Shown here piece after piece: positions 10,161-12,739 of a DNA stretch of 64,000 bases. The position numbers and the translations under genes were made by a program. Numbering within the stretch: the first letter of the stretch is position 1; every line of letters starts with the position of its first letter. The stretch covers positions 496,001-560,000 of the forward strand of contig NZ_JAEANY010000002.1 in assembly GCF_016019885.1 (NCBI RefSeq), given 5' to 3'. The stretch is from Aurantiacibacter sediminis (GTDB lineage: Bacteria; Pseudomonadota; Alphaproteobacteria; Sphingomonadales; Sphingomonadaceae). Under the pieces are notes generated by a model. It did no database searches. It was not told where the DNA came from and saw only the letters and a program-made list of their open reading frames with translations.

Positions 10161-11849
10161 TTATCTCCCCGGCCCGTGCGATGCGGCATTGGCCGCGCTC
10201 AACAAAGCGCGGACGCTGGCGGTCGCCACGTCATCGTCCATGCCGACACCCCAGCCGCTGGTGCCGTCGGGCAGGGCCCACTCGATATAGGCCGCAGCGC
10301 GGGAATCGACGCCGGTCTGCAAGGCATGCTCCGAATAGTCGGTGACTTCGAAATCGAGATCGAAGCTTTCGCGCAATGTGGCGAGGATGGAGGAGATCAA
10401 GCCCTTGCCGCGACCCGAAACTCGCTGTGCCTCGCCATCGACTTCGACTGTGCCTGTGAAAATACGCGTGCCATCGCTGGCGCGGCTTTCATCATAATCG
10501 ACGAGGGCGAAGCGGCGCTTATCGACTTGCAGGTAATAGGTCCGGCGGAAGCAATCCCATATATCGGCAACATTGAGCTCGCGGCCCATTTCGTCCGCCA
10601 TATCTTGTACGTGACGGCTGAAATCAGCCTGCATACGCTTTGGCAACTTGAGGCCCTGATCCTGTTGCAGCACCCATGCAAAGCCGCCTTTGCCGCTTTG
10701 CGAATTGACGCGGATCACCGCTTCGTAATTGCGGCCGAGATCGGCAGGATCGATAGGCAAATACGGCACCCGCCAATGCGTGTCGTTCTGCGTTTCGTGC
10801 GCTTCGAAGCCCTTCTTGATCGCATCCTGATGGCTGCCGGAGAATGCCGTGAACACGAGATCGCCGCCATAGGGATGGCGTTCATGCACCGGCAGCTCGT
10901 TGCAATATTCGACCGTCTCGATGACCTTGTCGATATCGGAGAAATCGAGGCCGGGATCGACGCCCTGCGTGTACATGTTAAGCGCGACCGTCACCAGGCA
11001 ACAATTGCCCGTCCGCTCTCCATTACCGAACAGACAGCCTTCGACCCGGTCCGCGCCAGCCATTATGCCCAGCTCTGCCGCGGCAACGCCGGTTCCGCGA
11101 TCGTTGTGGGTGTGCAGGCTGATCACCGCAGCCTCGCGACGCGGCAGATTGCGGCAAAAATATTCGATCTGGTCGGCGTAGGTATTGGGGGTCGCCGCTT
11201 CTACAGTAGCGGGCAGGTTGAGGATGATCGGCCGGTCCTTGCTCGGCCCCACGACATCCATCACCGCCTCGCATACCTCCAGACTGAAATCCAATTCGGC
11301 CGTGGAGAAAGTTTCCGGCGAATATTCGAATTGCCATTCCGTGCCGGGGCGCTTGGCGGCTTCATCGACCAACATCTGCGCGCCTTTGACGGCGATGGCT
11401 TTCACTTCGTCCCGGCTCATCTTGAACACAATTTCGCGCCACGCGGGGCTGACGGCATTGTAGAGATGCACGATGGCCGAATGCGCACCTTCCAAGCTTT
11501 CAAAGCTGCGCTTGATTAGGTCTTCACGCGATTGGGTGAGAACCTGCACCACGACATCGTCCGGCACTTTGCCCGACTGCACGAGCCAGCTGATGAAATC
11601 GAATTCGGTTTGCCCCGCTGCTGGAAAGCCGACCTCGATCTCCTTAACGCCCACTTCCACCAGCAGGTCGAAGAAGCGCGTCTTCTTCGCCCGGTCCATC
11701 GGATCGATAATCGACTGATTCCCATCGCGAAGATCGGTGCTGAGCCAGCGCGGCGGGGCAGAGATGGTACGGCTCGGCCATTGCCGGTCGGGCAAATCGA
11801 CCTGCGGGAACGGGCGGTATTTCGTGCTGGGATCACGCAGCATGGACAT
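10161..11849 (-). CDS. leuA: 2-isopropylmalate synthase LeuA
   Basis: First committed step of leucine synthesis: acetyl-CoA plus 2-ketoisovalerate to 2-isopropylmalate. 562 residues, the long LeuA form. The HMGL-like barrel begins with LSTDLRDGNQ (about 37-46) with the metal-binding RDGNQ, continues with SLHTHNDRGTG (metal His pair) and GNGERTGN, and ends with the C-terminal allosteric dimer domain (from about 430) that normally binds leucine. Start is ATG at 11849 or 11843; neither has a strong ribosome site. A leucine-rich leader peptide and alternative hairpins lie directly upstream, so expression is likely set by leucyl-tRNA supply. Confidence 0.96.
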   Translation of the reverse strand: MSMLRDPSTKYRPFPQVDLPDRQWPSRTISAPPRWLSTDLRDGNQSIIDPMDRAKKTRFFDLLVEVGVKEIEVGFPAAGQTEFDFISWLVQSGKVPDDVVVQVLTQSREDLIKRSFESLEGAHSAIVHLYNAVSPAWREIVFKMSRDEVKAIAVKGAQMLVDEAAKRPGTEWQFEYSPETFSTAELDFSLEVCEAVMDVVGPSKDRPIILNLPATVEAATPNTYADQIEYFCRNLPRREAAVISLHTHNDRGTGVAAAELGIMAGADRVEGCLFGNGERTGNCCLVTVALNMYTQGVDPGLDFSDIDKVIETVEYCNELPVHERHPYGGDLVFTAFSGSHQDAIKKGFEAHETQNDTHWRVPYLPIDPADLGRNYEAVIRVNSQSGKGGFAWVLQQDQGLKLPKRMQADFSRHVQDMADEMGRELNVADIWDCFRRTYYLQVDKRRFALVDYDESRASDGTRIFTGTVEVDGEAQRVSGRGKGLISSILATLRESFDLDFEVTDYSEHALQTGVDSRAAAYIEWALPDGTSGWGVGMDDDVATASVRALLSAANAASHGPGR

Positions 11850-11861
11850 AGAACTGGCTTT

Positions 11862-11954
11862 CTTCGACTTGGGGAGGGTGTTTGCAGCCCTTAGGCGGGG
11901 GCCCGGCGACAGCGCGCAGGGCAGGGGACACGCCTAAGGGCGTGTAAGTCGAAG
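11862..11954 (-). promoter_or_regulatory. attenuator-like leader of leuA
   Basis: Three helices can form in the minus-strand transcript. (a) CTTCGACTT (11946-11954, inside the leader peptide codons) with AAGTCGAAG (11862-11870, just before leuA), 9 perfect pairs. (b) ACACGCC/GGCGTGT local hairpin, 11928-11945, 7 pairs with a 4-base loop. (c) GCCCTTAGGCG (11931-11941) with CGCCTAAGGGC (11887-11897), 11 perfect pairs. Helices b and c use the same bases and exclude each other. No U-run follows helix c, so control may act on translation or through Rho rather than by an intrinsic terminator. Confidence 0.65.
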
Positions 11955-11981
11955 CAGGGATAGAAGCAGGTTCTTCCGCAT
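11934..11981 (-). CDS. leuL: leucine-rich leader peptide of leuA
   Basis: A 15-residue open reading frame, MRKNLLLSLLRLTRP, with six leucines (positions 5, 6, 7, 9, 10, 12), ends in TAG at 11934 and lies 85 bases before leuA. Its Leu codons 10 and 12 and its stop codon are part of the alternative stems described for the attenuator. This is the classic design of amino-acid attenuation: ribosomes stall on Leu codons when charged leucyl-tRNA is scarce. No strong ribosome site is visible before its ATG. The name is by analogy with other leu leaders. Confidence 0.7.
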   Translation of the reverse strand: MRKNLLLSLLRLTRP

Positions 11982-12045
11982 AGCCGTATTGCTATCGCCA
12001 ATCGCGAAAGGGGTAAACCACGAATTTAGTTGCATTTGGAACCAT

Positions 12046-12082
12046 GATCGGGGCTGCGACCCATGGGCGGCAGCCCCCGATC
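12046..12082 (-). terminator. hairpin after the yceI-family gene
   Basis: GATCGGGG-CTGC pairs with GCAG-CCCC-GATC (one bulged base), loop of about 12 bases, starting 9 bases after the stop at 12092. No T-run follows, so it is a possible but not typical terminator. Confidence 0.4.
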
Positions 12083-12091
12083 GGGTCCGGG

Positions 12092-12739
12092 TCAGTCCTT
12101 CTCGAAGGCGACAGTAATATCGAGCTCAACTTCATCGCCGATAGCAGGAAGCGCATATTCCATGCCGAAGTCGGAGCGATTGATGCTCGTCGTACCGTGG
12201 AAGCCGACAGTTTCCGCCTCGCTCATGGGGTTGGAACCCATGCCGGAAAGTTCAGCTTCGATCATGACCTGATTGGTCTGGCCGTTCAGCGTCAGATCGC
12301 CGACGATATGCGCAGTGGTCGCACCGGTCTGGTGGACTGCGGTGGAGACGAAGCGCGCGTCATGGGCATCGGGGCCGAAGAAATCGGGCTCAGCGCCATC
12401 TTCGCCCGGGCGCAGCATATGTTCGCGCAGGCCATCGCTCACCACGGCAAGCGAGTTGATCGGGATGCGCACATCGACAGAAGAATTGGCGAGGTTTTCG
12501 GTGTCCAATTCCAGCGTCCCCTCTGCATCGCCGAACAGGCCGAAATAGTCGTTGAAGCCGAAATGGCTGACGCGCCATTCAACCAGCGTGTGCGCCGGAT
12601 CGGTAGAATAGCTTCCCGAGGTGATGGAGCTCGTATCCATCGCTTCTTCTTGCGCATTGTGGTCATCAGCCAGCGCGGCGCTTGCTGAAAAGGCGGCGAC
12701 AGTACCGGCGGCGGTGAGGGCAAGCAGGGATTTACGCAT
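12092..12739 (-). CDS. YceI family periplasmic protein
   Basis: 215 residues with a signal peptide (MRKSLLALTAAGTVAAFSA, cleaved near ALADD). The body is a YceI lipocalin-like barrel: GSYSTDPAHTLVEWRVSHFGF near residue 42, the middle RIPINSL and VVGDLTLNGQT-type strands, and a C-terminal VELDITVAFEKD strand. YceI proteins bind long isoprenoid or similar amphipathic molecules in the periplasm; the ligand here is unknown. It is monocistronic, with a possible hairpin terminator beyond its stop. Confidence 0.9.
   Translation of the reverse strand: MRKSLLALTAAGTVAAFSASAALADDHNAQEEAMDTSSITSGSYSTDPAHTLVEWRVSHFGFNDYFGLFGDAEGTLELDTENLANSSVDVRIPINSLAVVSDGLREHMLRPGEDGAEPDFFGPDAHDARFVSTAVHQTGATTAHIVGDLTLNGQTNQVMIEAELSGMGSNPMSEAETVGFHGTTSINRSDFGMEYALPAIGDEVELDITVAFEKD

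Follow-up and report, generated by a model that had tools for sequence, protein, structure and literature searches.

The leader of leuA in Aurantiacibacter sediminis (Sphingomonadaceae, Sphingomonadales) is probably a cis-acting leucine attenuator that acts on translation, in which the leucine (Leu) codons of a short open reading frame (ORF) would themselves mask the start region of the gene. This leader lies on the minus strand of a 64,000-nucleotide (nt) stretch of contig NZ_JAEANY010000002.1 (positions 496,001 to 560,000), referred to here as the window. In comparison with the leaders of relatives, the ORF is conserved, a long-range stem covaries, a second stem, which joins the Leu codons to the start region of leuA (the base stem), is species-matched, and a U-run is mostly lacking. 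The features of the leader, in window coordinates, are as follows (bp, base pairs).

10161 to 11849, minus strand: leuA, encoding 2-isopropylmalate synthase of the leuA_yeast type; it begins at 11849 or at a conserved ATG at 11843.
11858 to 11865, minus strand: purine stretch GAAGAAAG, the best candidate, judged from the letters, for a weak leuA ribosome-binding site.
11862 to 11870, minus strand: 3′ strand of the base stem, AAGTCGAAG, directly before leuA (9-bp complement, swap test).
11887 to 11897, minus strand: 3′ arm of the 11-bp long-range stem, CGCCTAAGGGC, followed by no U-run (exact complement, covariation).
11928 to 11945, minus strand: local 7-bp hairpin ACACGCC-CTTA-GGCGTGT over the leader stop codon (sequence).
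11931 to 11941, minus strand: 5′ arm of the 11-bp long-range stem, GCCCTTAGGCG (exact complement, covariation).
11934 to 11981, minus strand: leader ORF MRKNLLLSLLRLTRP, from ATG 11981 to the stop TAG 11934 (sequence, frame conservation).
11946 to 11951, minus strand: codon pair CGA CTT (kept in relatives).
11946 to 11954, minus strand: 5′ strand of the base stem, CTTCGACTT, within the Leu codons (9-bp complement, swap test).
11991 to 12018, minus strand: promoter-like pair GTTTAC - 16 nt - GATAGC (sequence; conserved letters upstream of the leader ATG).

An original prediction made from the window alone had described the leader frame, the local hairpin, the 11-bp stem, and the 9-bp stem, all of which proved correctly placed on re-reading. 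It had also proposed that conservation of the peptide and the stems be sought in relatives, where both are found. The leader ORF (ATG CGG AAG AAC CTG CTT CTA TCC CTG CTT CGA CTT ACA CGC CCT TAG) encodes a peptide of 15 residues, six of which are Leu. Its core motif is present in 117 of 118 leuA loci, comprising the window's own, 80 named loci, 29 loci from the same genus, and eight more; the remaining locus, L113, reads N at this position. The peptides encoded ahead of leuA in relatives end in LLRLTRP or in RL[T/I/M]RPWA, with some other variants. In the RPWA form, translation would end two codons further on, and the arms have co-changed (CTTAGG:CCTAAG versus CTTGGG:CCCAAG).

Signs of translation were examined in a set of 147 distinct leaders, from which thirteen identical leaders in all had been removed and from which L113 was excluded for its upstream letters N. 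A frame opened by ATG runs into the core in the Leu frame in 146 of the 147 leaders, compared with 7 and 2 leaders for the other two frames; the leader of L052 has no ATG start. Variability in the last six leader codons peaks at position 3 (1.80 bits versus 1.31 and 1.32); further upstream, it peaks at position 2 instead. Leu makes up 41% of the eight codons before a conserved CGA codon. The rare Leu codon CTA accounts for 80 of the 465 leader Leu codons versus 2.8% in the window ORFs, and CTG and CTC together constitute 68% of the Leu codons in the window's long ORFs.

The leader of the window has a folding energy of −53.3 kcal/mol, a value reached by 2 of 200 dinucleotide shuffles (z = −2.9), and its best structure, from models that took in nested stems only, includes both long-range stems. 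The 11-bp stem, 11887–11897 with 11931–11941, is an exact complement, and in 200 single-letter shuffles of the sequence downstream, the partner of its arm was never equalled. Covariation was assessed in 83 leaders, non-redundant at 90%, among which RNAalifold picks this stem unaided. In the alignment, 94.4% of cells are paired, five pairs show changes on both sides, and none of 500 shuffles attains any of five measures. The column pair 47–111 is GC in 46 leaders, AU in 36, and GU in 1, and when the partner is slid by 1–3 columns, pairing drops to 23–63%. The outermost pair, 41–117, is unpaired in 36 of the 83 leaders.

The local hairpin had been predicted to compete with this stem. The hairpin is present, shares letters with the long-range stem, and also shows covariation, with pairing in 81.8% of cells and double changes in 20 cells across the 83 leaders; two of its five covariation measures fail to beat shuffles. 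Its role as the main competitor is less supported, as it hardly forms at equilibrium: in the window, the long-range stem has a probability of 0.99 versus 0.007 for the hairpin, and the mean hairpin probability over the 147 leaders is 0.058. Because the equilibrium fold strongly favors the long-range stem, the local hairpin would be only transient. The distance between the 3′ arm and leuA in loci L002–L118 falls mainly into two classes, of about 35–55 and about 65–80 nt. In the window's genus, the longer-distance class often contains an extra GC-rich hairpin, while AAGTCGAA stays adjacent to leuA.

The base stem joins the Leu codons (11954–11946) to the bases before leuA (11870–11862), as had been predicted, and its letters are lineage-specific. 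In the window and several same-genus leaders, CTTCGACTT pairs with AAGTCGAAG, Novosphingobium-type leaders carry the pairs CTCGG:CCGAG, CTTGG:CCAAG, and CTGGA:TCCAG, and in L165 the pair is CTTCTTCTGCG:CGCAGAAGAAG. The duplex between the Leu codons and the start region of the window has z = −3.0 against shuffled partners. In a swap test, the leader's own base-stem partner was compared with the partners of other species within the same leader class. The own partner is preferred in the P* class (n = 58, z −4.8, 0/5000), the WA_CTG class (n = 40, z −5.4, 0/5000), and the WA_other class (n = 36, z −5.2, 0/5000), and six of eight controls have z above −1.5. Across the Alphaproteobacteria (class-wide), 22 leaders from 21 families give −18.75 kcal/mol for self versus −15.28 kcal/mol for cross pairing (z −4.8, 0/10000), with z −1.2 in the upstream control (21 leaders). 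By these comparisons, species-matched partners maintain the base stem class-wide and in three of the four leader classes of the sphingomonads.

Folding with a ribosome in place was modeled in the 147 leaders by forbidding pairing for the 27 nt under the ribosome. In free RNA, the zone before leuA is on average 0.41 unpaired. Placing the A site on one or the other of the two codons that precede CGA raises this value to 0.543 and 0.535, with 105 and 104 leaders being more open and 21 and 19 less open; with the A site at the stop, it is 0.456. In the window itself, the zone is 0.22 unpaired in free RNA, 0.65 and 0.68 with the ribosome stalled, and 0.33 with the ribosome at the stop, a prediction that agrees with the original proposal that stalling at the Leu codons frees the leuA start region. 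Because the long-range stem persists (0.85–0.92) with the ribosome on these Leu codons, it looks like a scaffold that would keep the Leu codons close to leuA.

The start of the transcript appears to lie close to the leader ORF. Ahead of the leader ATG, letters are conserved at distances of about 33–36 and 12 nt (146 leaders), a −10-like word is placed 12–15 nt upstream of it in 78 of the 87 leaders having one, and a Shine-Dalgarno (SD) word precedes the leader ATG in 4 of 146 leaders. This arrangement suggests an mRNA start at the leader ATG or a few nt ahead of it, with a transcript that would be leaderless or nearly leaderless. A scan of 11400–12400 with the Escherichia coli consensus found neither a promoter nor a terminator.

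In the mechanism that we propose, a promoter just upstream would set the mRNA start at or near the AUG of the 15-codon leader ORF. When leucine is ample, ribosomes would cross the Leu codons and come off the mRNA at the stop; these codons would be brought beside leuA by the long-range stem, and pairing of these codons with the bases before the start would cause leuA to be poorly started. When leucine is scarce, the ribosome would wait on CTG CTT CGA CTT, these codons would be unable to pair, and the leuA start region would open. As modeled, leucine shortage probably opens leuA for translation. The order of events, the response to leucine, and the leaderless start are what we infer.

Several observations weigh against this mechanism. 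Measured against shuffles, the duplex is of modest strength as a whole (mean z −1.06, with 34 of 107 leaders below −1.5, ten identical leaders having been removed beforehand), and in the Erythrobacter-like class the swap test falls short of significance (n = 13, 519/5000). The control on the 5′ peptide region drifts, with z −2.75 in the WA_other class and −2.08 in the Erythrobacter-like class. Kinship within the leader classes inflates the swap tests, and because of this inflation the class-wide test weighs more. In the mask folding, the start-codon zone is nearly unchanged, going from 0.496 to 0.514 and 0.517. An SD word (such as AGGA, GGAG, or GAGG) is found ahead of leuA in only 2 of the 147 sphingomonad leaders, in agreement with the original statement that leuA has no clear ribosome site, and the site masked by the base stem would therefore be a weak one. 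SD-like paired letters are seen in several class-wide leaders, for example CGAAGGAC in L200 and GAGAAGGAT in L222. Lastly, mutations in the Streptomyces leuA leader are reported, in Seliverstov et al. 2005 (PMC1262725), to be inconsistent with classical attenuation.

Transcription attenuation is an unlikely alternative, in which the long-range stem, acting as an intrinsic terminator, or Rho, acting on the emptied leader, would end transcription unless ribosomes stalled at the Leu codons prevented it. A strong long-range stem does sit between the leader and leuA, the RNA after its 3′ arm is C-rich and unpaired in the window, and at least five T within the 8 nt after the 3′ arm are found in 7 of the 147 leaders. 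However, such a T-run is lacking in the other 140, there is no terminator-like site in 11400–12400 of the window, and species-matched pairing with the leuA start region is unneeded by this model. In the classical enterobacterial leu operon attenuator, a Leu-rich leader ORF and alternative RNA stems are followed by a U-run terminator at which transcription is ended. The leader of the window has in common with it a Leu-rich leader ORF and RNA stems, possibly alternative ones, before leucine genes, but the U-run terminator, the defining feature of classical transcription attenuation, is absent, as the original prediction had noted. Action on translation, which that prediction had offered instead, fits both the scarcity of T-runs and the opening of the zone before leuA in the mask folding. 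We refer to this proposed translational attenuator as a variant because it would work like known translational attenuators, resembles the LEU element described below, and does not have the terminator of the classical type.

It is highly improbable that the leader encodes a ribosome-arrest peptide, in which the RL.RP end or the CGA-CUU pair would stall the ribosome in response to a signal other than leucyl-tRNA shortage. The peptide ending is conserved, and CGA is present in 147 of 147 leaders with CTT (138) or CTA (9) as the next codon, the motif search having required the letters CG, CT, and CG.CC and left the third codon letters free. In contrast to what such a peptide would lead one to expect, the stop shifts by two codons between the RP and RPWA endings, several class-wide leaders are without CGA before CTTA, Leu occupies the two positions ahead of CGA in 139 and 112 of the 147 leaders, and the leader serves leuA. 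Equally faint is the prospect of an RNA that binds a protein or a ligand, with translation of the ORF playing no part: the very strong conservation of the core letters would suit it, as would the protein that the 2005 authors proposed for the actinobacterial LEU element (PMC1262725), but the frame, the start codon, and the third-position variability argue for coding.

A translational attenuator of the kind proposed can be compared with several known systems. Searches against Rfam 15 gave only tRNAs in the window, no family on 20 related loci, and, on the leader at E values up to 10, two chance-level long noncoding RNA matches (E 3.2 and 7.8) far below gathering scores. In erm-type translational attenuators, a ribosome stalled in a leader ORF exposes the start of the next gene, and the signal is an antibiotic. 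As in the erm type (compare the abstract of PMC5118997), stalling of a ribosome within the leader ORF would here make the next start region accessible. The main differences are that the signal would be uncharged leucyl-tRNA and that the stalling codons themselves would be the masking strand. In Sinorhizobium meliloti, the trpL leader (rnTrpL) is a tryptophan attenuator whose mRNA begins at the leader AUG, according to PMC10117765. Both are alphaproteobacterial amino-acid leader ORFs, but trpL concerns tryptophan rather than leuA, and the leaderless start is putative in the leuA leader.

The plan of the leader resembles that of the LEU element, which is predicted to precede leuA in Actinobacteria (Seliverstov et al. 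2005, PMC1262725). That report presents a pseudoknot that has an alternative hairpin and leaves the mechanism open, with a binding protein proposed by the authors. The two have in common a Leu-run leader peptide before leuA, a base stem from the Leu run to the leuA SD box (the SD word being weak in sphingomonads), and the lack of an obvious terminator. They differ in phylum and in that the LEU element is described as a pseudoknot, whereas the leader of the window was modeled with nested stems. Homology between the two would be a further assumption. In the literature searched, no alphaproteobacterial leuA translational attenuator was described; an earlier account in Vitreschak 2004 or Lopatovskaya 2010 is possible.

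The distribution of the leader was determined with R1, a covariance model built from 83 relatives and tuned to sphingomonads. In the window's genome, R1 finds the leuA site only, and a second copy in the same genome was rejected, since the other match, at 25.6 bits, is the antisense echo of that site. R1 matches are present in 295 of 397 genomes of the order and in 49 of 81 genera, with three of the 295 lying outside the window's family. Each of the 29 best R1 loci (L121–L149) is followed by leuA, and all 16 loci chosen by a window-type leuA (L150–L165, mostly from genomes with weak R1 matches) have an R1 match upstream. Of seven R1-negative genomes of the family (G122, G124, G129, G143, G149, G154, and G187), six are without a leuA match and one has a partial 28% match; it is possible that these seven are leucine auxotrophs.

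In the class, R1 has matches in 45 of 387 genomes, including six from the family of the window, and a LeuA-like frame follows the leader in 13 of 14 R1 class loci (by eye; L191 was not used). Of 114 class genomes, 97 have a match to an E. coli-type leuA; the top 30 loci, from 27 families, were inspected. The core CT[T/A]A..CCC with at least seven contiguous pairs to a downstream arm is found in 23 of these 30 loci, versus 0.175 per 30 in single-letter shuffles, and the count depends on the rule, a stricter one with a fixed 9-letter arm and penalized end mismatches giving 11 of 30. The typical class-wide form is CTTCGACTTAnnnGCCCCTGAGCG...CGTTCAGGGG. R1 scores the leader of Sphingomonas parapaucimobilis at 45.6 bits and that of Shinella, in which the Leu frame is kept, at just 14.7 bits. 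Leaders were also recognized by eye in Methylobacterium bullatum (MRGHARPRALLVGLLLLIRP, ending at a stop), Phaeobacter inhibens, Paracoccus denitrificans, and P. pantotrophus. In the leuA of betaproteobacterial Caballeronia, taken as an outside control, the core was not found by eye, and there is only a chance Leu-containing frame.

The leader is found ahead of two types of leuA. LeuA of the window passes the cutoff of TIGR00970 leuA_yeast (822.7 bits versus 697.4), as does LeuA of L189, and LeuA behind the leader in L186, L166, and L170 passes TIGR00973 leuA_bact. Both L166 and L170 belong to the window's own family. LeuA of L167 and L171, likewise from the family, shares 28% identity with LeuA of the window, their type being putative and judged from this identity. 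Because the leader precedes both leuA_bact and leuA_yeast, also within one family, these sequences indicate that the gene type has been exchanged while the leader stayed, and the direction of the exchange would follow from how widely the leuA_bact form is distributed across the class. Transfer from Actinobacteria together with leuA is not favored: the leader also precedes leuA_bact, and R1 has no match in two actinobacterial plasmid leuA loci, which are not typical chromosomal copies.

We lean slightly toward the broader view that the leader represents an alphaproteobacteria-wide leuA element, in which the sensing Leu codons of a nearly leaderless micro-ORF would be the masking strand, the partners would be species-matched, and the element would outlive replacement of the gene that it controls. 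If so, a large share of the Alphaproteobacteria would control leucine synthesis through a single compact RNA switch outside Rfam 15, and the same codons would sense the amino acid and mask the gene. Regulation would have outlasted its gene, with two leuA subfamilies behind one leader, and a comparative handle would be available on the actinobacterial LEU element, the mechanism of which was left open in 2005.

The leuA product of the window is 562 amino acids long when counted from ATG 11849. Relatives without this first ATG retain an ATG two codons further on, at codon 3 (window position 11843), and for this reason the true leuA start is uncertain. The upstream neighbor on the same strand is a gene for a YceI-domain protein that ends at 12092, leaving an intergenic gap of 242 nt. 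A long inverted repeat (GATCGGGGGCTGC...GCAGCCCCGATC, 12081–12045, minus strand) follows the YceI-domain gene and sets it apart from the leuA leader; this repeat is perhaps the terminator of that gene. Elsewhere in the window, a strong hairpin (GTGGCCCGGCAAGA...TCTTGTCGGGCCAC, 17647–17616, minus strand) is located between a TTGACA promoter-like site and the likely start of ilvB, which may, given this hairpin, have a leader of its own.
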